Part shown: in pieces, positions 26,624 to 37,315 of the stretch
Layout: each line of letters starts with the position of its first letter
Position numbering within the stretch: the stretch's first letter is position 1
Origin: Betaproteobacteria bacterium
Lineage (GTDB): Bacteria > Bdellovibrionota_B > Oligoflexia > Silvanigrellales > Silvanigrellaceae
Assembly (NCBI GenBank): GCA_016868315.1
Contig: VGHE01000003.1
Location: 186,001-250,000 of the forward strand
DNA length: 64,000 bases
Direction of reading: 5' to 3'
Position numbers and translations under genes: made by a program
The notes under the pieces: generated by a model
Database searches by the model: none
Told to the model about the DNA's origin: nothing
What the model saw: the letters and a program-made list of their open reading frames with translations, nothing else

Positions 26624-28711
26624 TTAGCTCGCTTGAGCGATATCTTGCACAATCCCTGCATCCTTCACATGCGCGCCTGGCAAAACAAAGTAGAAACGAG
26701 TCATCTTGCTTTGACGGTCAAAACCAATTTTACCGTTATTGCGTTGTACAAGTCGCTGACAAAAGCCTAATCCAACCCCCATACCGTGAACTGAACCTTT
26801 GGTGGTCACGGGCACATCAAAAAGCTTGTTGAGAACCTCCGGCGAGGGACCTATGCCGCTATCAAGCACACTGATCTCAACAGGAGGCTGCAACGCATCA
26901 ATCGAAACAGACTGAAAAGGTACACTCACCACGCGGATCCAGGGCTTTTCCTGACCTGCAACGGCATCCACAGAGTTTGAAATCAAATTGGCAAAAACTT
27001 GCACCACGTCGCTACGGCGAGCACGCACAGTGCGCGCATTCTCAAAGTCAACCTCAACAAAACCGAGAAAGTTTTGAGTCTTCACTTCGAGCATCTTGAG
27101 GGCATCTTCGAGTGCAGCCTTGAGATCCACATCGACAATATCTTCATTTTGCCCCTCGGCAGACATTGATTTTATTGCGCGAATGGTTTGTATTACGGAG
27201 TCAATCAATCTGAAAATTTCATTCACTTTAACAAGAACAGGCTCCGAAACTTTGGCGAATGATGGCTGCGGTGATTGCTGCTGCAACGTGATTTCATCGC
27301 GAATTCTTTCTGCCTTTAGACGAATGGCAAACACTGGATTGAGGACTTCGTGAGACGTATATCGTGCCGCCATGGCCAAGGTTTTATCCCTCACGCTCGA
27401 CTCTAAGTGAGAATGCGCGGCTTCGAGGCTTTCAAGTGCTTCTTGCTTCTCTATCATGGTGCGACGCATCTTTTCAGACAATACAAATGAAAGCAGAATA
27501 GACTCTAACGTGGCACTGAGAAGCACGATGTTCAGCGTGAAGGTGGTGGACGGGAGCCAACCAAACATCTTAATGCAGTAGGCTGCAGCGCCTGCAAAAA
27601 GAACCGCCTCTGCAACAATAAATAGATCAGCGACACGCCCGTAATTTGGTCGAGCGCGCCATGCTCGGCTCAACCCCAAGGTCAACGCTGCGAGCGCACA
27701 CAGATTCGCTTGGATGGAAGCGAAGAATCCGCCCTCAAAAAGCTGCAAAACAAACCCAAGTCCACAGAGCGATGCAAAGAAAATCCAAATCATTTTTTCA
27801 ATGCGGGTCATCGGTGTCTGTTTAAACAAGCTGTAAGAGAAGGCGATGTAACTCAGACTCACCAGATTAATAAGAATATTGGCCGAGTTATAATGCAACC
27901 AAAGAGTATCTGGCCACAAGAACATATGCCCCGTGCCGTTAATGGATGCAGCCATCAGCGCAATCGACGCAACATACACACCATAAAAAAGAAACTCATT
28001 CTCGCGGCGCGCCACACCCACCATAATGTTGTAAAGAGACAGCAACAAAAGACCACCAAACAGGCTTGCTAGAGGTACAAGCTCGCGAATCACTGAGCTC
28101 AAAAATACTCTTTCATCGAGCAACAAAAAGGGAACATTCATAACGTGTGCTTTGAGCCGCACGAGTGCCTGGTAGCGCTGTCCAGGTTGTACTTGGAGAG
28201 AAAAAGAGACGTGCCGCACGTCGTTCAGATTCTGAGAACGCGGTAGAAGTTTGTCGGTGAAGACCTGGGTCTGACCCAAGCGAGAGCTTTGCTCGCCTTG
28301 ATTACTTACAATTTCGGTCAGCGAGCCGTTGATATAAGTGTGACGCAATTGCAAAACAAAGGATGAGGCACGAGCGTCGGCAGGATTGTCGAATTGCATC
28401 CAGACCCACACCCCCTCGCGCAGATACCCAAGATCCAGCTGCCCTGTTTCGCCACCGGTTGGTTTGAATTGACCCGCACGCAAAGCTCCAAACGCCTGCT
28501 CGACGCTCAACTCCTGACCCACGGGCTCCTTTAGATAGTGCAAAGCGACCTTTTCGGAAGTCACCTCCGAATGATTCATGAGGTACGAGGTTACAAGAAG
28601 GAAGGTGAGTGCGGTGAAAAAAACGAGCAAGTAACCACCGCGGTCATTCCCCTTTTCTCCTGAATGATTTTCAGAGCTCGTTCCGACCGAAGTCAGGTGC
28701 CTTTGTGTCAT
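26624..28711 (-). CDS. 7TMR-DISM sensor histidine kinase
   Basis: 695 aa. A membrane anchor (~27-45) leads to a periplasmic 7TMR-DISMED2-type beta domain (~60-200), seven spans (~210-415), a coiled-coil, and the kinase core. The phospho-acceptor is His454 in YTSHEVLNPV, the N box is VFANLISNSVDA, and the G boxes are VLDSGIGPSPE and GMGVGLGFCQRLV. DISM domains typically bind carbohydrate-like ligands. No response regulator is adjacent, so the partner is elsewhere. ATG 28711 follows AGGGGG at 5 nt; the more distal in-frame start lacks one. Its 3' end lies 10 bp from the convergent pseudo-phosphatase gene. Confidence 0.9.
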   Translation of the reverse strand: MTQRHLTSVGTSSENHSGEKGNDRGGYLLVFFTALTFLLVTSYLMNHSEVTSEKVALHYLKEPVGQELSVEQAFGALRAGQFKPTGGETGQLDLGYLREGVWVWMQFDNPADARASSFVLQLRHTYINGSLTEIVSNQGEQSSRLGQTQVFTDKLLPRSQNLNDVRHVSFSLQVQPGQRYQALVRLKAHVMNVPFLLLDERVFLSSVIRELVPLASLFGGLLLLSLYNIMVGVARRENEFLFYGVYVASIALMAASINGTGHMFLWPDTLWLHYNSANILINLVSLSYIAFSYSLFKQTPMTRIEKMIWIFFASLCGLGFVLQLFEGGFFASIQANLCALAALTLGLSRAWRARPNYGRVADLFIVAEAVLFAGAAAYCIKMFGWLPSTTFTLNIVLLSATLESILLSFVLSEKMRRTMIEKQEALESLEAAHSHLESSVRDKTLAMAARYTSHEVLNPVFAIRLKAERIRDEITLQQQSPQPSFAKVSEPVLVKVNEIFRLIDSVIQTIRAIKSMSAEGQNEDIVDVDLKAALEDALKMLEVKTQNFLGFVEVDFENARTVRARRSDVVQVFANLISNSVDAVAGQEKPWIRVVSVPFQSVSIDALQPPVEISVLDSGIGPSPEVLNKLFDVPVTTKGSVHGMGVGLGFCQRLVQRNNGKIGFDRQSKMTRFYFVLPGAHVKDAGIVQDIAQAS

Positions 28712-28971
28712 GGTTCCCCCTTGAACCACCTGGGTTCGGCACCACTGAATAAAAACACAAAGAAAACACAATTACGTTGCAATTACATTGACATACAGCA
28801 CGAAAGTGAATCAACTGTATTGAAATACTCTGGAACCACACCTCTTCCTGAATTCCTCAATAAATTCATACAATCAGCCGGAAAGTCCAGAAACAGCCCT
28901 TGCCAAATACCTCTTTGTTGGTACTGTACGCAGCACTTGAAGCCCTTAATATTGTCTGCAGGGAGTTCCTT

Positions 28972-30372
28972 ATGAGAGTTCTGCCACTCACTCTGGCTCT
29001 GGTCGTCGGTACATTTCAGTTTACAGCACAAGCCGCAGTGATCGGCGTTGTCGACTCCGGCGTTGACTTCAAACACCCAGACATCGCTCCGCACACATGG
29101 GTCAATCCAGGTGAAATTCCCAACAACGGTCTCGACGACGAACAAGACGGATACGTTGACGACGTCAACGGCTGGAACTTCGTTGAGAACAACGCAATGC
29201 TGCTCGACAGCAAGTATCTAAACACCTTCCCACCAGAGACACCGCGCTTCTTTGAAATTCAGAAACGTCTGCTCGAAGGCACCGCGACCGATGAAGACAA
29301 AGCGTGGCTGAAGGAAAACTTGGATAAGCCTGAATTCCGCAAAAAGCTCGGCATTTTCGGAAACTTTGTGCACGGAACGCATGTGGCTGGAATTGCATTG
29401 CGGAAGAATACCCAAGCTGACCTCCTCGGTATCAAAATGATTCCCACCGAGAATCCGCTTGCTCCAAACTCCGCCTACGGCATCCGCGATAACGCACGCG
29501 CTGCTTCACGCTTTGTTTCTCGCGTCTGGAACACGGTCTGGCCTGTGCTGCGCGATGCTGGCTTGAAAGCAGGTCTGTCGAAACTGGCAGAGCTGCAAAG
29601 CACACAGTTCACCAAGGTGGCGTTGTATCTCGCAGACAAGCGTACCGATGTTGCGAACTACTCTTTGGGAGTCAGCACTGCGGCTGCATCGAACATCGTC
29701 AAGCCTGTCCTGAAGGCTGTTTTGGGTCGCGAACCAACTGAAGAAGAAATCAAAAACTATGCATCGTTCTTCGTTGCACGCGTCTCAGAGAATGCACAGA
29801 AATGGGTTGCTCTTGCACCTGACACGCTGTTTGTGATTGCGGCAGGCAACGACGGAACCGACAACGACGTTCTTCCCACGGCACCCGCAAATGCAAAGGC
29901 GCCCAACACAATCACCGTGGCAGCAACTCTGGGTCGCACCCGTTTGGCACAATTCTCCAACTACGGCCGCCAGATGGTGGACGTGGCTGCGCCCGGAGTG
30001 GGCATCACCTCTGCTCTGCCTGGTGGTGGTGAACTCGTGCTGAGCGGAACAAGTCAGGCTGCGCCTTACGTTGCACAGGTCGCTGCTGCAATCAAAGACG
30101 CCAACACCGATCTGAGCGTCCACGACCTCAAGCGCATTCTGATGGGCACAGTCGATACGCGTGACTGGCTGGCGGACAAGGTGAAGAGCTCAGGCATCGT
30201 CAACCGCGATCGCGCGGTTCGCGCGGCTGAATTGTCGAATAAAATGAGCGTCGCTCAGGCCATCATCCAAGCCAACAAAGACATTGCGGATCTCGAAACC
30301 CCCTACGAGCGCGTTCTCTCTGCCGAAGACGAAGCACTTCTGTGGGCTCCAGAGCTGCCTATCGGGCTCTGA
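28972..30372 (+). CDS. Subtilisin-like serine protease (S8), secreted
   Basis: 466 aa. A signal peptide (1-~21) is followed almost at once by the catalytic domain. The triad is Asp28 (VVDSGVDFKHPD), His134 (VHGTHVAGIAL) and Ser361 (LSGTSQAAPYVA), with oxyanion Asn293 (IAAGNDG). There is a ~100-residue Asp/Glu-rich insertion between Asp and His, including calcium-like DDEQDGYVDDVNG. The Asp is only ~6 residues after the predicted cleavage site, so there is no I9-type propeptide. AGGGAG lies 6 nt before the ATG. The last ~60 residues form a helical C-terminal tail. Stop is 2 bp from the convergent LolA-like gene. Confidence 0.9.
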   Translation: MRVLPLTLALVVGTFQFTAQAAVIGVVDSGVDFKHPDIAPHTWVNPGEIPNNGLDDEQDGYVDDVNGWNFVENNAMLLDSKYLNTFPPETPRFFEIQKRLLEGTATDEDKAWLKENLDKPEFRKKLGIFGNFVHGTHVAGIALRKNTQADLLGIKMIPTENPLAPNSAYGIRDNARAASRFVSRVWNTVWPVLRDAGLKAGLSKLAELQSTQFTKVALYLADKRTDVANYSLGVSTAAASNIVKPVLKAVLGREPTEEEIKNYASFFVARVSENAQKWVALAPDTLFVIAAGNDGTDNDVLPTAPANAKAPNTITVAATLGRTRLAQFSNYGRQMVDVAAPGVGITSALPGGGELVLSGTSQAAPYVAQVAAAIKDANTDLSVHDLKRILMGTVDTRDWLADKVKSSGIVNRDRAVRAAELSNKMSVAQAIIQANKDIADLETPYERVLSAEDEALLWAPELPIGL

Positions 30373-30374
30373 TT

Positions 30375-31139
30375 TCAACGCACCACATTGTTGATGTTGA
30401 AAATTGAATCGTCGTGCGACTCCTCGCGCGGCGATTCGTATTTTATGGTGGTTATATTCTTTGGAAACGCGGCGTCCACAATCACCATCTGACTGACGAA
30501 AGGAATCTTCTTTCCACCGCTCACCAGGGAGTTGTTGTATTCGAACGTCGCAGTCTTAAAGAGCTCACCGCTCAAAGTCAGAAATTCGGCCTTTAACGCA
30601 AGTTTTTTATCTTTTGAAATCCAGTAACGGATCTTGTCGTACGTAACATTTTTGTCGCGTGCCTTGAGGTTCAACAGATAGGCAGCTGTGCTGCCCAGAA
30701 CCACCTCTTTATCAAAGCTGGCGTTATAATCACGAGCATAATTGGTCGATGCAATATCGCCATTTGCAGCCTGACCCGAGAGACGCTGCCGTGCCGAAAT
30801 TGCAACCGGCTTCTTTATTCCAGGCTTGAGAAACCAGAGATTTCTATTGTTGAAAAGAACGACTTCGCCTTTACAACGAGGCGGATTCACGCACTCCGCA
30901 AGGGCGTTTACCCCCTTGGCACGGACTTCATACTTTGAGGTTGAGGTCTCATCATCCTCGACGGTATCAATCGTAATGTTCCAGGTCACACCCACAGCTA
31001 AACCGCCACGAAAGCGATCGGAGGCTTTCATCAGCTCTTCGACGTTGGGTGACGCAAAGGCTGCAATAGGATAGATGAACAAAGCGATGCATCCAACGGT
31101 TTTAGGCACCATTCGTGTCGCGATACAGCCTTCACTCAT
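30375..31139 (-). CDS. LolA-like periplasmic lipoprotein/lipid-sorting protein
   Basis: 254 aa. A signal peptide (KTVGCIALFIYPIAAFA) precedes a single beta-rich domain with a LolA-like order: the helix NVEELMKASDRFRGG, then long strands with WNITIDTV, KYEVRAKG, LWFLKPG, YLLNLKARDKN, YWISKDKKLALKAEF and NITTIKYE. This fits the outer-membrane lipoprotein-sorting superfamily used with LolCDE-, MacB- or MMPL-type machines. ATG 31139 has AAGGAG ~8 nt upstream. It is the last gene of a three-gene set with the ATPase 30 bp upstream and the barrel protein before it. Permeases are divergent at 34-36.7 kb. Confidence 0.75.
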   Translation of the reverse strand: MSEGCIATRMVPKTVGCIALFIYPIAAFASPNVEELMKASDRFRGGLAVGVTWNITIDTVEDDETSTSKYEVRAKGVNALAECVNPPRCKGEVVLFNNRNLWFLKPGIKKPVAISARQRLSGQAANGDIASTNYARDYNASFDKEVVLGSTAAYLLNLKARDKNVTYDKIRYWISKDKKLALKAEFLTLSGELFKTATFEYNNSLVSGGKKIPFVSQMVIVDAAFPKNITTIKYESPREESHDDSIFNINNVVR

Positions 31140-31169
31140 CACAATCTCTCCTTCAAAATACATTCGCGT

Positions 31170-31880
31170 TCACGACGCACGGTTGAGAACGGCATCCGAT
31201 TCAACAATCAGTCCGTCCTGCAGACGAACAACGGTGCGAACGCGACCCATAAGCTTCTCGTCGTGGGTCGAAAATAGAAAAGTCACTCCCGTGCGCGCAT
31301 TAATATCCAGCATCAAATCAATAATTTTATGAGCTGTAACAGAGTCCAGATTTGCGGTGGGCTCATCTGCAAGAACAAGCGCAGGTTGGGTCACGAGGGC
31401 ACGGGCAATAGCAACACGTTGTCGTTGACCCCCCGAAAGTTGGTCAGGCAGATGCTTCTGAAAATCCGAGAGACCTACTTTTTCAAGCGCCTCACGCACG
31501 CGCTGTGTGCGAGTGTGCTTGTCCACCTGTGCTTGTATGGTCAATGGTAACTCGACGTTGTCGAAAACATTGAGAACCGGAATGAGATTGAAAGTTTGGA
31601 AAATGAACCCAATTTTTAGATTGCGGAGTTCACTTTTTTCATTATCGCTCAGGTTCAGAACCGAGCGCCCCTCAAGTAGAACCTCACCAGAATCCGGAAC
31701 ATCAATGCAACCAACCATGTTGAGGAGTGTGCTCTTACCCGAGCCAGACGCACCGACAACCGCGGTGAAGTCGCCCTGCGCTAAGCTGAAATTTACCCCA
31801 CGCAGTGCAGGTGTTGTGGTCTTTCCAAGCTGGTAGCCTTTATGGACATCTTTCAGCTCAATGAGACATTTACCAGACAT
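31170..31880 (-). CDS. LolD/MacB-class ABC transporter ATPase
   Basis: 236 aa. Walker A is GASGSGKSTLLN, the Q-loop is IFQTFNLIPVL, the signature is LSGGQRQRVAIARALV, Walker B is LVLADEPTANLD, and the switch is FSTHDEKLM. It belongs to the o228/LolD-MacB group that powers mechanotransmission machines rather than import. ATG 31880 follows GGGG at ~7 nt and overlaps the preceding barrel gene by 11 bp. Cognate FtsX-type permeases are very probably the two divergent genes at 33993-36719. A second ATPase of this class, ybbA, has its own adjacent permease. Confidence 0.92.
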   Translation of the reverse strand: MSGKCLIELKDVHKGYQLGKTTTPALRGVNFSLAQGDFTAVVGASGSGKSTLLNMVGCIDVPDSGEVLLEGRSVLNLSDNEKSELRNLKIGFIFQTFNLIPVLNVFDNVELPLTIQAQVDKHTRTQRVREALEKVGLSDFQKHLPDQLSGGQRQRVAIARALVTQPALVLADEPTANLDSVTAHKIIDLMLDINARTGVTFLFSTHDEKLMGRVRTVVRLQDGLIVESDAVLNRAS

Positions 31881-33795
31881 GTTTATGCCCCAATGAAAGA
31901 GAAAAACGGCGAGCGACTGCAGCAGCAGAGACATTCTCTCCGTGATAACCGCCGAGCGACGCGAAAAACACTGTGTTGTCTGAGAACAGGTATTCGCCGT
32001 ACGCGACAAATAACCCGGATGAATCTTCAAAAGGCTTCAGATAACGAACGAGCGAGGTCCATTTGTTCTGTGGACCGAAATTATTGCGACGCGCCGCGAA
32101 CAGAACTCCATACTTCGACTGAGATTCAGCTCCGGGCTGAAAAAACAAGGGCAGGAAAGGAGAATTCCCGCGTTCGAGCGTTTGCGCATCTTGGAGGGTT
32201 GCGTCATCGAGACCAACACTGTTGACATAACCTTCCGCGCGCACTTCCATATTGTCAGGAAGTGAGTAGCGCGCCCCAACAACGAGTTCAAAGTTGGTCG
32301 CTTCTTTTTTCAATTCCGGTAAGTCGTAAACGATAAAAGAATTCGTCTGCGCACGCCCAGGAACATTTATGCGCGTTGGCAAAGCCAGGTCTGCCCCCTG
32401 AAATTGAGCTGCATCTGCATAGATCTGTAAATTATCGGACAAGGAATAGGTCGCATACTGCCCGACAAAAGGAAAACCCTGTTTCTCGGCAACCCCGAGC
32501 ACAATACCAACAGAGTTAGCTGCGTTATTCCAGGAATACTCAGGTTTAATTAAAGCGCGTCGCCCTGCAAATATTCGCGGTCTTTCTTGCTGTTCGGGTT
32601 CATATTCAGCCATCGCAACAACACTCAGCTGTTGGCCTAAACTAAAATTCATCCGCACAAGGTCGCGGGTCTCAACCTCACTCTGAGGATTGCGAATCAG
32701 TGTATCTGCCAAACGAGTCGGCCTGAAAATCCAGTTACTCGGACTCCTGAGTTCTGCTGGCCCCCACTGAAAGTTCTGCTTTCCAGCTGTGAGTGAAAAT
32801 TGTGCTGATGGCTTAAGGACAGCGAATATCTCGCCAACGTTGGCCGTAAACTGACTCGTGAGTTGGTCTTTACCACTGAGTTTACTTGCACGTTCATGAG
32901 CGAGAAGGATTCGGCTACGAATATTCAACTGGAAGCTTCGACCGTTGGATAGCTTCACACTCGGATAAATTTGATCCCGCAAAACAAACCAGGGCACAAG
33001 AATCGCATCGTTCGAAAATGACCCGAAATCAACCGCAGGCATGGCCAGCGCAGCGGTGATAATATTTTCAAGACCGGCTGAGAATTTGATGTCGGATTTA
33101 TCCTGAAAATAGGAAGGCACGGGAGGTTCTTTCGGCTCCGGCTTGGGCTTGGATTTAGACTTGCTTTGCTTTTTAGAGGAGTTTTTCTGTTTTTTGGTTT
33201 TCTTTTTCTCGGTCGGCTCGCTCTCCTGAGGAGAGCTCGATTCATCTGGTTTTACGCTCTCCGGCGGCACCTCTGCGTCCGGTTTGAGTTCGGTCATTGT
33301 ACCCGACTTCGGTTCACCCACTTCCGGCTGCCCGCTCTTTTCCTGAGAAACTGCGCTCTCGGGGTTCTGTGTTGGCTCAGTTGTCGCATTGGGCGGCGTG
33401 AAATCTTCGGTCGCAGGAGGTGTCATCCCCCCGTTTTCTGGTGCACCGAAGGCGTCCGAATCGGGATTGGATGGTGCAGAGCTCGGAGCGGCTGGAGCTG
33501 GTTTGCTGCGTGGTGCAGAGTATCCCGAGGGCGGCTGATAGAAATCTGATTCTGTGCTCCCGCTGCTCTCGCTTACGGGATCAATGCCATCGAAATTCTC
33601 GGGCTCGTTGCTCTGGCTTGCCCCACTGCTTTCCGGTGATGATCTCTGCGGACTGGATTCAGAGCTTTCGCTCTCAAAAGGAATTTCGATCGGATACTCA
33701 GTTGGTGCCTCGTTTCCTTTCGCAGCAGCGCTTATGAGCGCAAAAGGAAGAACGTGCAGACAATAGACAGACACTCTGATTTTTGTCGGAAGCAC
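31870..33795 (-). CDS. Outer-membrane beta-barrel protein with long Pro/Ser/Lys-rich linker
   Basis: 641 aa. Signal peptide 1-~25; disordered Ser/Glu/Pro-rich segment ~27-196; a Lys-rich patch ~197-222 (EKKKTKKQKNSSKKQSKSK); then a C-terminal barrel domain ~236-641 rich in alternating strands, with family-like pieces GKQNFQWGPAELRSPSN and WNNAANSVG and a terminal aromatic (GHKHVW). A porin-like domain of this type often sits with LolA-like proteins. The linker could span the periplasm or bind peptidoglycan. It is first in the operon with the ATPase and LolA-like genes, so I infer an envelope-spanning transport role. Polyproline content makes it an EF-P client. Confidence 0.7.
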   Translation of the reverse strand: MLPTKIRVSVYCLHVLPFALISAAAKGNEAPTEYPIEIPFESESSESSPQRSSPESSGASQSNEPENFDGIDPVSESSGSTESDFYQPPSGYSAPRSKPAPAAPSSAPSNPDSDAFGAPENGGMTPPATEDFTPPNATTEPTQNPESAVSQEKSGQPEVGEPKSGTMTELKPDAEVPPESVKPDESSSPQESEPTEKKKTKKQKNSSKKQSKSKSKPKPEPKEPPVPSYFQDKSDIKFSAGLENIITAALAMPAVDFGSFSNDAILVPWFVLRDQIYPSVKLSNGRSFQLNIRSRILLAHERASKLSGKDQLTSQFTANVGEIFAVLKPSAQFSLTAGKQNFQWGPAELRSPSNWIFRPTRLADTLIRNPQSEVETRDLVRMNFSLGQQLSVVAMAEYEPEQQERPRIFAGRRALIKPEYSWNNAANSVGIVLGVAEKQGFPFVGQYATYSLSDNLQIYADAAQFQGADLALPTRINVPGRAQTNSFIVYDLPELKKEATNFELVVGARYSLPDNMEVRAEGYVNSVGLDDATLQDAQTLERGNSPFLPLFFQPGAESQSKYGVLFAARRNNFGPQNKWTSLVRYLKPFEDSSGLFVAYGEYLFSDNTVFFASLGGYHGENVSAAAVARRFSLSLGHKHVW

Positions 33796-33992
33796 CCAAA
33801 AACCTCCTCATGCATCGATGCTAAGCATAACGGGTTGAGCCGATGCTCGAGGCAGAAACTTTGCCTGGGAAGCCATTTTTTTTTGCCCGCTTAGGGGGAA
33901 AATGTGTCACCTGAGACAAAGACAATGCATTTTTTTCACCCTGCTGTTACCTTGGAGTGCTACTCTTTTTCAGAGATCCGGAGACTGCACCC

Positions 33993-35363
33993 ATGACGAC
34001 ACGCCTGGCGTTGGCGTTCAAGAATCTGGGACGGAACCGCCGCAGAAACCTTGCCACGGCAAGTGCAATCGTTCTGGGCTATGCCGGCCTTATTCTTTTG
34101 GGTGGGTTTGTCACACGCATTGAGAAATTTTTCCGTGCAACTTCGGTCTACGTAAACCACATTGGCAGTCTCTCGATTTACAAGCCTGAGGGGGTCGAAA
34201 AACACCTTCTCAAACCTAGGAAATATAGCCTTTCACCTGACGAGCAAATGAAAGCCAGACAGGTTCTTGAGCGCATCTTTCCGCAACATGAGGGAATCGG
34301 TGCGAGTCTGCACGGATTTACCCTTGTCGGAAATGGTTGCAAAACCTGGCCGGTGCGTATCTCGGGGCTAGAACCGGCACTGGAAGAAAAGCTCCTCAAG
34401 CATTGGGCCGTGGAAAAGTACGCCCCGGAGCTGCTAAACTCTCGGCGTGGAAAAGCGCTCTGGGAATTCAAGAACATGATTCCCATCCTTGTAACAGAGA
34501 AGGTCGCGCGTAACCTGGGCAAAGACAACCTGAACCTAGACCATTCTCTGCCATCGAGCGCACCTGCCTCAACCACGGTTCCGGATTGCAATGCTGCTGA
34601 TTTCCGCGCACAGAGTTCGAATGACCCGAACGTACAGCTGGCAGGGCGAACCTTCCAAAACAACTTTTCCGCTATCGACGCGGAGATCGTTGGATTTTAT
34701 TCCAGCGGACTGGAACTCCTCGAGGAATCTGCAGCCCAGCTGCCACTTGAGGCTCTGCAAAAACTTTACGAGACCGAAGCGGTCACCAAAATGGCTATCT
34801 ACTTGCCGTGGGATACACCTGTTGAAGAGAATGCAGCGCTTCTGAATTCAGAACTCAAAAAAGCAGGGCTCGATTTGGAAGTGCATCACTTCAAAGAATT
34901 TTCAGTCAATCCCTTCTATGCAGGATTCATGAATCTGATTTACGTCATGTCGGCCTTTTTCCTCACCCTTGCCGTTTGTGTGGTGACGCTCACTGTTTCC
35001 GACACCATGACCATGAGCGTGCTCGAGCGTTCCAAAGAAATCGGCACGCTGCGCGCAGTCGGTTTCAAAAAGCAACAAATCAGCCGCATGTTCTCTGAAG
35101 AGGGAACACTGCTTGGTCTTTTGAGCCTGCCCGTTGGTCTGCTGGTGGCCTGGACAGTGACCTTGATCGTCAACGCAGCCAAAATCCTATTCGAGGTTCC
35201 AGGTATTTCGACACGCCTTGAGGTTGTGCTTGAAATTGACCCTGTCCACTGCGCCGTTGCCGGTGTTTTACTCGTTACGGTAACAAGCATCTCCGGCTGG
35301 ATAACCTCCGTTCGAACCAGCCGTCGTCAAATTGTCAAACTGCTGCAATCTCATGTTTCGTGA
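33993..35363 (+). CDS. FtsX/LolC-type ABC permease (first of two)
   Basis: 456 aa. One N-terminal span (NLATASAIVLGYAGLILLGGF) is followed by a MacB-like periplasmic domain of ~280 residues and a C-terminal FtsX core of three spans. The core contains the coupling helix RSKEIGTLRAVGFKKQQISRM, which docks on the ATPase. ATG 33993 has GGAG ~10 nt upstream; the in-frame GTG at 33957 is less likely. It lies 48 bp before a second permease of the same class, as LolC/LolE do. The gene is divergent from the barrel-ATPase-LolA set. Confidence 0.9.
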   Translation: MTTRLALAFKNLGRNRRRNLATASAIVLGYAGLILLGGFVTRIEKFFRATSVYVNHIGSLSIYKPEGVEKHLLKPRKYSLSPDEQMKARQVLERIFPQHEGIGASLHGFTLVGNGCKTWPVRISGLEPALEEKLLKHWAVEKYAPELLNSRRGKALWEFKNMIPILVTEKVARNLGKDNLNLDHSLPSSAPASTTVPDCNAADFRAQSSNDPNVQLAGRTFQNNFSAIDAEIVGFYSSGLELLEESAAQLPLEALQKLYETEAVTKMAIYLPWDTPVEENAALLNSELKKAGLDLEVHHFKEFSVNPFYAGFMNLIYVMSAFFLTLAVCVVTLTVSDTMTMSVLERSKEIGTLRAVGFKKQQISRMFSEEGTLLGLLSLPVGLLVAWTVTLIVNAAKILFEVPGISTRLEVVLEIDPVHCAVAGVLLVTVTSISGWITSVRTSRRQIVKLLQSHVS

Positions 35364-35411
35364 GTTCGGTGCCATGTTCGCCGAGATGAGGTCTCGGGCA
35401 TTGAGGAGCGT

Positions 35412-36719
35412 ATGAAATCTTTTAAGATGGGAGTCCGAAACACTCTCAACAACTGGCGACACTCGCTCGGCTCGATGCTCTCTGTGGCCATCGGCTTTGC
35501 AGCACTCACCTTGTTCAACGGCTACATCAGCGTTGTGCAGGACATGTACGAAGACAACTATCGCCAGCGCAGCATGTTTGGCGACGTCATGATCGAGAAG
35601 TCGCGCAATGGGAAAGCCATTGATTTCGAGGATTCGCGCATCAATGAAAAAGAACAACAATTTATCGAAAACTTCATCACTGAGAACCGGTCTTTAGTCG
35701 ACCAACACGCTCGTTTTCTGATTGTCAGCGGGTTTGCCAACAATGGCAAATCGAGTGCGATCTATTGGGGGTTCGGCTATGACCTCGAAAAAGGGCGACA
35801 GTTACGCGATCCAACCTGGCCTTGGAACAGCAAGGCAGGCAAGCCTCTTGACCTGCAGTCTGAGGATGCAGTCATGCTCGGCGAGGACATTGGAGACACC
35901 TTCGGTTGTGTGCCCGAACGCAACGAACGCCTACTCACAAAAGTCGGAGGCTACACGGCCGTAGAGCGCCCCTTCCGTTGTGAACGCCCCAACCTACAAC
36001 TGACCGTAACAACCGACTCCGGGCAGGTGAATGCTATGGCAGTTACGATTGGTGCGCTCGGAGGAGTTGGGCTCCGTGGTATCGACTCCTGGTACCTAAT
36101 GATGTCACTTCCCAAGGCTCAAGCTCTGCACGACACGCGCGACATTTCTCACATCCGCCTGCGCCTCAAAGATAAAAAAATGTTCGGAACATTTGTTGAA
36201 CGTTTCAACTCCGCAGCAAGTTCTGCACAACTCGAATTGAGGGCATTCGACTGGCGCGAACATATTTTGGCTCGCGTTTATAAACGTACCATGAGTCTAT
36301 TTTTAATTTTTCGTGACCTAGTGAGTGCAGTTATTCTCACCATCTCAGGAATGTCAGTGCTTAATGCTATGGTCAAAAGCGTCAATGAACGCCAACGTGA
36401 AATTGGAACGCTGCGCAGCCTTGGATTTCGAGGAAGCCGCATCATTTCCATCTTCACCACCGAAGGAGTTGTGATTGGTTTATTTGGCTCGGCCGTGGGC
36501 GGTGCACTGAGTGTGGTCGCATCACTCTTTCTTAACCGTGTCGAATTCATCTACTATGCTGGCTTCCTCTCCGATCCCGTTCCGTTTGTGATTGGCCTTG
36601 TTCCACGCCTGTATCTTTACTCGCTTTTCATTCTCTGCTCGATTGCAGCTATTGCATCATTTTTCGCTGCCCGCCGTGCGGTTAAAATCAGTATCCCTGC
36701 CCTGCTGAGTTCAACCTGA
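35412..36719 (+). CDS. FtsX/LolE-type ABC permease (second of two)
   Basis: 435 aa with the same layout as its neighbour: one N-terminal span (SLGSMLSVAIGFAALTLFNGY), a periplasmic domain of ~230 residues, and three C-terminal spans. The coupling helix is VNERQREIGTLRSLGFRGSRI. The two differ throughout the periplasmic domain, consistent with an asymmetric heterodimer. GAGGAG lies ~4 nt before the ATG. aat follows after 11 bp and may be co-transcribed. Confidence 0.9.
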   Translation: MKSFKMGVRNTLNNWRHSLGSMLSVAIGFAALTLFNGYISVVQDMYEDNYRQRSMFGDVMIEKSRNGKAIDFEDSRINEKEQQFIENFITENRSLVDQHARFLIVSGFANNGKSSAIYWGFGYDLEKGRQLRDPTWPWNSKAGKPLDLQSEDAVMLGEDIGDTFGCVPERNERLLTKVGGYTAVERPFRCERPNLQLTVTTDSGQVNAMAVTIGALGGVGLRGIDSWYLMMSLPKAQALHDTRDISHIRLRLKDKKMFGTFVERFNSAASSAQLELRAFDWREHILARVYKRTMSLFLIFRDLVSAVILTISGMSVLNAMVKSVNERQREIGTLRSLGFRGSRIISIFTTEGVVIGLFGSAVGGALSVVASLFLNRVEFIYYAGFLSDPVPFVIGLVPRLYLYSLFILCSIAAIASFFAARRAVKISIPALLSST

Positions 36720-36730
36720 AAGAAAATGCG

Positions 36731-37315
36731 ATGCTGCCCTCAGAACTGACCCCCGAAATCGTTTTGTTTGCCTACGGCCAAGGCTGCTTTCCGATGCCGG
36801 ATCCAAGCACCGGCAATATCAACTGGTATCGTCCCGACCCACGTGCCGTCATACCGCTCGAAGGCTTCCACGTCGGTCGCACATTAAAACGTGTCCTCAG
36901 CAAGCAAAACTTCACTATTCGCACTAACAACTGCTTTGAAAAGGTTATGCGCGCCTGTGCAGCTCGAGAGGATACATGGATTACCGAGGACTTCATTCGC
37001 ATTTACGGACTACTAAACGCGCTCGGTTTTGCGCATTCACTTGAGGTCTTCCACAATGACGAGCTTGTTGGTGGCGTGTACGGCGTGTCTTTAGGTGGCG
37101 CGTTCTTTGCAGAATCGATGTTTCATGCAACCTCCAACGCTTCAAAGGTTGCCTTGTTTTATCTTGTCGAACATCTCAAAAAAATGAATTTTGTGCTTCT
37201 CGAGTGCCAGTTTCTTACCCCCCACTTAGCCTCACTCGGAGCGATCGAAATTTCCGATCACAGCTATATGTCGCAACTTGCCTCTGCTTTGGAACTGGAA
37301 AACGTCGCTTTTTGA
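36731..37315 (+). CDS. aat: Leucyl/phenylalanyl-tRNA-protein transferase
   Basis: 194 aa. It adds Leu or Phe from charged tRNA to proteins beginning with Arg or Lys, creating N-degrons for ClpS-ClpAP. Family motifs are YGQGCFPMPD, INWYRPDPRAVIPL, the GNAT-fold loop GGVYGVSLGGAFFAESMFH and LLECQFLTPHLASLGA. The sequence is slightly shorter than E. coli Aat (234 aa) at the N-terminus, but the catalytic Glu/Gln region is present. No strong Shine-Dalgarno precedes ATG 36731. Confidence 0.95.
   Translation: MLPSELTPEIVLFAYGQGCFPMPDPSTGNINWYRPDPRAVIPLEGFHVGRTLKRVLSKQNFTIRTNNCFEKVMRACAAREDTWITEDFIRIYGLLNALGFAHSLEVFHNDELVGGVYGVSLGGAFFAESMFHATSNASKVALFYLVEHLKKMNFVLLECQFLTPHLASLGAIEISDHSYMSQLASALELENVAF

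Follow-up and report, generated by a model that had tools for sequence, protein, structure and literature searches.

What does a locus transport that encodes a LolA-like periplasmic protein and a LolD/MacB-class ATPase together with two FtsX-type permeases and an outer-membrane barrel? We analysed such a locus in a 64,000-nucleotide stretch of DNA (the window) from contig 3 of a draft genome (27 contigs, 3.24 Mb). Among its named relatives, one Silvanigrella MAG and one Silvanigrellales MAG stand closest. We favour, with a probability of roughly 0.6, a dedicated trans-envelope export cassette in which a hydrophobic, lipid-like molecule would be passed via the LolA-type carrier to the barrel.

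Layout of the locus

All five open reading frames lie at the positions and on the strands described in the initial annotation, with the LolA-like, ATPase, and barrel genes co-oriented and the two permease genes divergent (Table 1). The minus-strand order is barrel, ATPase, LolA-like, while permease 1, permease 2, and aat follow one another on the plus strand. Likely start codons are found at 31139 (LolA-like), 31880 (ATPase), and 33993 (permease 1), the last being placed by comparison with orthologues. The start of the ATPase gene and the 3′ end of the barrel gene share an 11-nt overlap, which suggests translational coupling. The gap between the divergent units is presumed to hold the promoters of both; it contains no consensus sigma-70 promoter, and the count for this region falls below the shuffled mean.

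The aat gene (leucyl/phenylalanyl-tRNA protein transferase; window 36731-37315) starts 11 nt past permease 2 and is probably co-transcribed with it; its position is kept in both congeners. At the opposite end, an S8 subtilase gene (window 28900-30372) converges on the LolA-like gene, with the stop codons only 2 nt apart, and this arrangement is likewise kept in both congeners. A gene for a 7TMR-DISM sensor histidine kinase (window 26624-28771) adjoins the subtilase gene.

Table 1. Features of the locus, in window coordinates
Feature	Position	Strand	Basis
LolA-like periplasmic carrier (PF17131), 254 aa	30375..31139	-	apparent signal peptide, without lipobox
ABC ATPase, LolD/MacB class, 236 aa	31170..31880	-	NCBIfam LolD score, ABC motifs
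Outer-membrane barrel protein, 641 aa, unnamed family, C-terminal Trp	31870..33795	-	alignment and AlphaFold model
Barrel domain, residues 229-641, the conserved part	31870..33111	-	alignment, model
Ser/Pro/Glu-rich linker with Lys-rich patch, residues 30-228, genus-specific	33112..33708	-	composition; absent from ~440-aa relatives
Intergenic gap between the two divergent units	33796..33992	.	sequence
Permease 1, FtsX type, LolC/LolE fold (model), 456 aa	33993..35363	+	FtsX match, model, LolE Z 25.7
Permease 2, FtsX type, 435 aa	35412..36719	+	FtsX match, LolE sequence match, alignments

The five genes are conserved together

An alignment of the LolA-like protein, scanned against ~85,000 species genomes, yielded 76 loci. 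Close orthologues occur at 46 of these, or at 35 once loci truncated at a contig end are set aside; in 30 of the 35, the genes for the ATPase, two permeases, and the barrel all lie beside the LolA-like gene. The LolA-like orthologues of other families share 46-83% identity with the window protein. Across the Bdellovibrionota, the orthologues of the five genes are co-directional and mostly form a single operon, in several other families in the order barrel-ATPase-permease 1-LolA-like-permease 2, and in Bdellovibrionales-named genomes usually with the barrel last. Because relatives carry these genes as one operon, chance neighbourhood is ruled out, and the five genes are a real, conserved unit belonging together. 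A profile of the barrel, searched against 58 genomes of the phylum, detects relatives in 16. Betaproteobacterial loci (Azoarcus, Zoogloea, Ferriphaselus) usually encode a single permease, in the order ATPase-permease-LolA-like-barrel.

The divergent layout is common to the window and its two congeners and, judged from these sequences, is a genus-level rearrangement. The ATPase gene is also present in the congener where its absence had been suspected. In a related genus, permeases and ATPase are encoded at one site and the LolA-like protein and barrel at another. The initial annotation had reckoned with a set that disperses in relatives or a carrier-barrel pair that serves another exporter. The set is conserved; in a few genomes, however, the LolA-barrel pair has no ABC transporter next to it.

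The ABC transporter and its carrier

Both permeases carry an FtsX domain at the C-terminus (E 4e-15 for permease 1, 1.7e-15 for permease 2). The model of permease 1 (pLDDT 86.6) best matches LolE (rmsd 5.0, 371 aligned) and LolC (Z 23.6), followed by MacB (Z 18.2) and FtsX (Z 17.6), and hence predicts a LolC/LolE-type fold. Permease 2 matches LolE by sequence over its C-terminal half (E 6.8e-17). As first noticed from the sequence, the two proteins differ in their periplasmic regions; these are clearly distinct, and permeases 1 and 2 sort into two orthologous groups. Each has two conserved periplasmic cysteines (Cys116 and Cys199 in permease 1, Cys166 and Cys190 in permease 2), which may form a disulfide. 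The periplasmic domain of permease 1 is modelled with a strand pair (213-219/225-236), a possible counterpart of the Hook with which LolC recruits LolA.

The ATPase matches ABC_tran (E 4.8e-35) and has intact Walker A, signature, Walker B, and H-loop motifs. It scores 237.6 bits against the curated LolD model TIGR02211, under the cut-off of 307.75, which the bamA-linked LolD of the same genome also does not pass (272.9 bits). Against the curated LolC/E model TIGR02212 (cut-off 362.45), the permeases reach 45.7 and 62.4 bits and the bamA-linked LolC/E of this genome 227.4 bits. The LolA-like protein belongs to PF17131 (E 1.7e-27) and has no match to the LolA family PF03548 at E <= 1. Its closest solved structure is 3buu (NE2245 of Nitrosomonas, E 4.6e-39), with which it shares the stretch GQ-x-ANGDIA. 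None of the five proteins has a lipobox. Since it does not pass the curated Lol family models, we do not file this system as Lol.

The MacB-like side of permease 1 (Z 18) would also suit a pump that expels toxic hydrophobic substances (solvent- or antibiotic-like) and uses the LolA-like protein as periplasmic adaptor. A precedent is AmeABCD of Castellaniella, in which a LolA-superfamily protein, a barrel, and an RND pump provide tolerance of apolar monoterpenes (PMC6394551). Together with the DUF1302/DUF1329/RND cassettes, AmeABCD resembles the window locus in combining a barrel and a LolA-superfamily periplasmic protein with an inner-membrane pump. In contrast, the pump is an ABC transporter here, and neither the barrel nor the carrier has the respective Pfam match (DUF1302, DUF1329). 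No RND/MMPL pump is present at the window locus, where the scanned neighbours are the subtilase, the 7TMR-DISM histidine kinase, and aat. Moreover, the LolC/LolE fold outscores MacB for permease 1, and no regulator or resistance genes lie beside the locus or recur in relatives, which makes efflux of toxic compounds quite unlikely.

An unnamed barrel with a channel-type fold

The 641-aa barrel has no significant Pfam or NCBIfam family match. At Pfam E <= 1 it gives no OprD, AlgE, or Omp85 match, just weak OMP_b-brl and SH3_7 matches; DUF1302 (PF06980) matches neither this barrel nor the scanned relatives. Its sequence has no meaningful match among solved structures. In contrast to the sequence comparisons, the AlphaFold model of the barrel domain (mean pLDDT 89.7, pTM 0.86) finds Occ, AlgE, and other porins as its best 50 structural matches, Omp85 not being among these 50. 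Occ/OprD channels are closest (Z 23.6, rmsd 3.2, 309 aligned), and AlgE reaches Z 22.5. The model thus indicates an Occ/AlgE-type channel fold that is not obviously Omp85-like. This likeness (Z 20-24 over about 300-320 residues) is one of fold, at 7-13% identity and without an OprD or AlgE family match, and a shared fold is no proof of shared function.

A 17-row alignment of barrel relatives shows that those outside the genus have ~440 residues and lack the N-terminal linker. The N-terminal ~200 residues of the window barrel are rich in Ser, Pro, Glu, and Lys and are not conserved outside the genus. The Pro/Glu linker and Lys-rich patch singled out at the outset are therefore real but confined to the genus, and a functional role for them, absent as they are beyond it, is unsupported.

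In a small-profile comparison, the window barrel and two paralogous barrels of the same genome (see below) gave weak scores only, whereas a profile built from 33 barrel rows recovers both paralogues at 8e-13 and 1e-12 and leaves non-barrel decoy ORFs undetected. Among plasmid cassettes, this profile also finds the barrels of those in E. coli (7e-17), Rahnella (4e-14), Aliiroseovarius (5e-11), and Enterobacter (1e-6), while Paraburkholderia and Vibrio barrels are marginal (about 1e-3).

The closest fold being that of the Occ/OprD uptake channels, the pathway might run in the retrograde direction: A misplaced lipid or a hydrophobic nutrient would enter through the barrel and be moved inward by the carrier. 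Mla, a lipid ABC system, is arguable in either direction. However, type VII permeases resembling permease 1 are exporters or extractors, and the relatives adjoin biosynthetic rather than catabolic genes. Uptake is thus quite unlikely, and we assume the export direction from the ABC class.

A standard-looking Lol set elsewhere in the genome

Whether the genome also has standard Lol genes could not be told from the locus. A LolC/E-type permease and LolD are encoded immediately upstream of bamA. The genome also encodes another permease of the LolC/E type, and a PF03548 LolA lies at C6:69751. LolB is absent, with no match over the cut-off anywhere in the genome; many bacteria with a genuine Lol system also lack it. 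Two more cassettes, on contigs 15 and 1, comprise an ATPase, two permeases, a LolA-like protein, and a ~480-aa barrel. Given the separate standard-looking Lol set and the two paralogous cassettes, the window locus is not the housekeeping lipoprotein pathway. The separate set, the absence of LolB, and the paralogous cassettes are as expected for specialised pathways. The earlier idea that a barrel replaces LolB consequently holds for the position of the barrel at the outer-membrane end, but not for a simple replacement within the housekeeping pathway, for which the genome has its own genes.

The locus could instead be a second Lol pathway for special lipoproteins, e.g., surface-exposed ones, with a barrel that receives the lipoprotein and displays it at the surface. 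Such a pathway has been proposed for Borrelia BBJ23-29 (PMC13078400), and it agrees with the LolC/LolE-type fold of permease 1, the LolD-class ATPase, the LolA-superfamily carrier, and the genome-wide absence of LolB. Yet besides the standard-looking Lol set, the lack of any conserved lipoprotein gene found beside the operons, the likeness of the barrel to channels of the porin class and not to an insertase, and the fatty-acid/polyketide-type clusters that house relatives (see below) render a lipoprotein pathway unlikely.

Gene clusters of relatives point to a lipid-like cargo

Plasmid cassettes with ATPase, permease, LolA-like, and barrel genes occur in Enterobacter, Rahnella, E. coli, Paraburkholderia, and Aliiroseovarius, surrounded by genes for ketoacyl synthase, ACP, FabZ, malonyltransferase, phosphopantetheinyl transferase, or similar. 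The Enterobacter set includes acpS, SDR, FabZ, ACP, a GcvT-like aminomethyltransferase, two ketoacyl synthase genes, the ABC ATPase, and malonyltransferase. Compared by composition only, it matches what is reported for cyl operons, which serve the synthesis and export of a polyene lipid (PMC6985545). On the Enterobacter bugandensis plasmid pEC105227L (L173:7036-21883), the ABC/LolA-like/barrel module replaces the Gram-positive exporter of this cyl-like gene set; a Rahnella locus (L168) likewise combines the module with a gene set similar in composition to the streptococcal cyl operon. An IncK2/Z mobilizable E. coli plasmid from a healthy person (L174:7879-19075) carries ABC, FtsX, LolA-like, and barrel genes in a FAS-like cluster, whose enzymes are SDR, ACP, ketoacyl synthase, PfkB kinase, and crotonase.

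Similar surroundings are found for further LolA-barrel pairs. In a Bacteriovoracaceae MAG (L104:483-12889), LolA-like and barrel genes lie near those for an AMP-binding enzyme and a PKS-NRPS protein of 1999 aa, and another pair (L143) adjoins ketoacyl synthase genes. The genome of the window itself has a fourth LolA-like gene on contig 6 at ~50-56 kb (L037:3955-10147), with a barrel just under the DUF1302 Pfam cut-off. This pair, which has no ABC transporter, adjoins a DUF3419 protein and a diacylglycerol-kinase-type protein. Members of DUF3419 include betaine-lipid synthesis enzymes, and the locus is a candidate lipid synthesis-and-export cluster.

For the window cassette, the fatty-acid/polyketide-type context of its relatives points to a lipid or polyketide-like cargo. 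Of the two cargoes initially proposed, lipid is thus favoured and lipoprotein is the less likely reading. The cluster-borne relatives are distant (27-35% identity in the LolA-like protein), and most have a single permease. No biosynthetic enzyme directly adjoins the window locus, and neither a consistently linked enzyme nor any recurrent neighbour gene was found across the Bdellovibrionota operons; therefore, the window system may carry something other than its cluster-borne relatives do.

Model and comparison with known systems

The conserved set, the modelled barrel, and the LolC/LolE-type fold predicted for permease 1 bear out a Lol-like five-gene system with an outer-membrane barrel end. 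In the export cassette that we favour, permeases 1 and 2 would assemble with two ATPases into a heterodimeric type VII transporter of the LolCDE/MacB class. Driven by ATP, this transporter would lift a lipid, lipid-linked, or polyketide-like compound from the inner membrane and load it into the LolA-like carrier. The carrier would then cross the periplasm and hand the molecule to the Occ/AlgE-class barrel, a putative receiver in the place of LolB, which would release it into the outer leaflet or to the exterior.

With the E. coli LolCDE-LolA system, the locus shares two FtsX-type permeases (LolC/LolE fold predicted for permease 1), a LolD-class ATPase, and a LolA-superfamily carrier. It differs in that all four of these components score under the curated Lol models or lie outside them, LolB is missing, a barrel belongs to the set, and the genome holds a separate Lol set. 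Borrelia BBJ23-29 (PMC13078400) similarly unites a LolA-like carrier, a type VII ABC transporter, and a barrel in one cluster. There, however, the barrel is of the Omp85 type (predicted to be Occ/AlgE-like here), one permease is proposed to be homodimeric, and two TPR proteins are present, for which we found no match among the five proteins or the scanned neighbours. The aryl polyene export proteins ApeL/ApeM/ApeN also include a LolA-like carrier, there for a lipid-anchored product proposed to be outer-membrane-bound, but use an RND pump and a LolB-like protein where the locus studied here has an ABC transporter and a barrel. We found no published description of an ABC/LolA-like/porin-type-barrel combination in the open-access literature.

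Lipid delivery to and across the outer membrane is only partly understood. The conserved set names each station, namely inner-membrane extractor, carrier, and outer-membrane receiver, and thereby makes the question directly testable, while the unnamed barrel family gains a predicted partner and job. More broadly, the chain from a heterodimeric LolCDE-like ABC transporter via a LolA-type chaperone to an unnamed Occ/AlgE-type channel could be a widespread lipid-export route, stand-alone in Bdellovibrionota and the export module of fatty-acid/polyketide clusters elsewhere, a generalization to which we give slightly less than even odds. If true, it would explain how some Gram-negative polyene/polyketide-type clusters export their hydrophobic products. 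The label "outer membrane lipoprotein-sorting protein" on PF17131 members may often name the wrong cargo. In addition, plasmid pBdHAGR2 of Bdellovibrio sp. HAGR004 (L172:6103-9695) encodes a LolA-like protein, an ATPase, a permease, and a 388-aa hypothetical protein that is a possible barrel.
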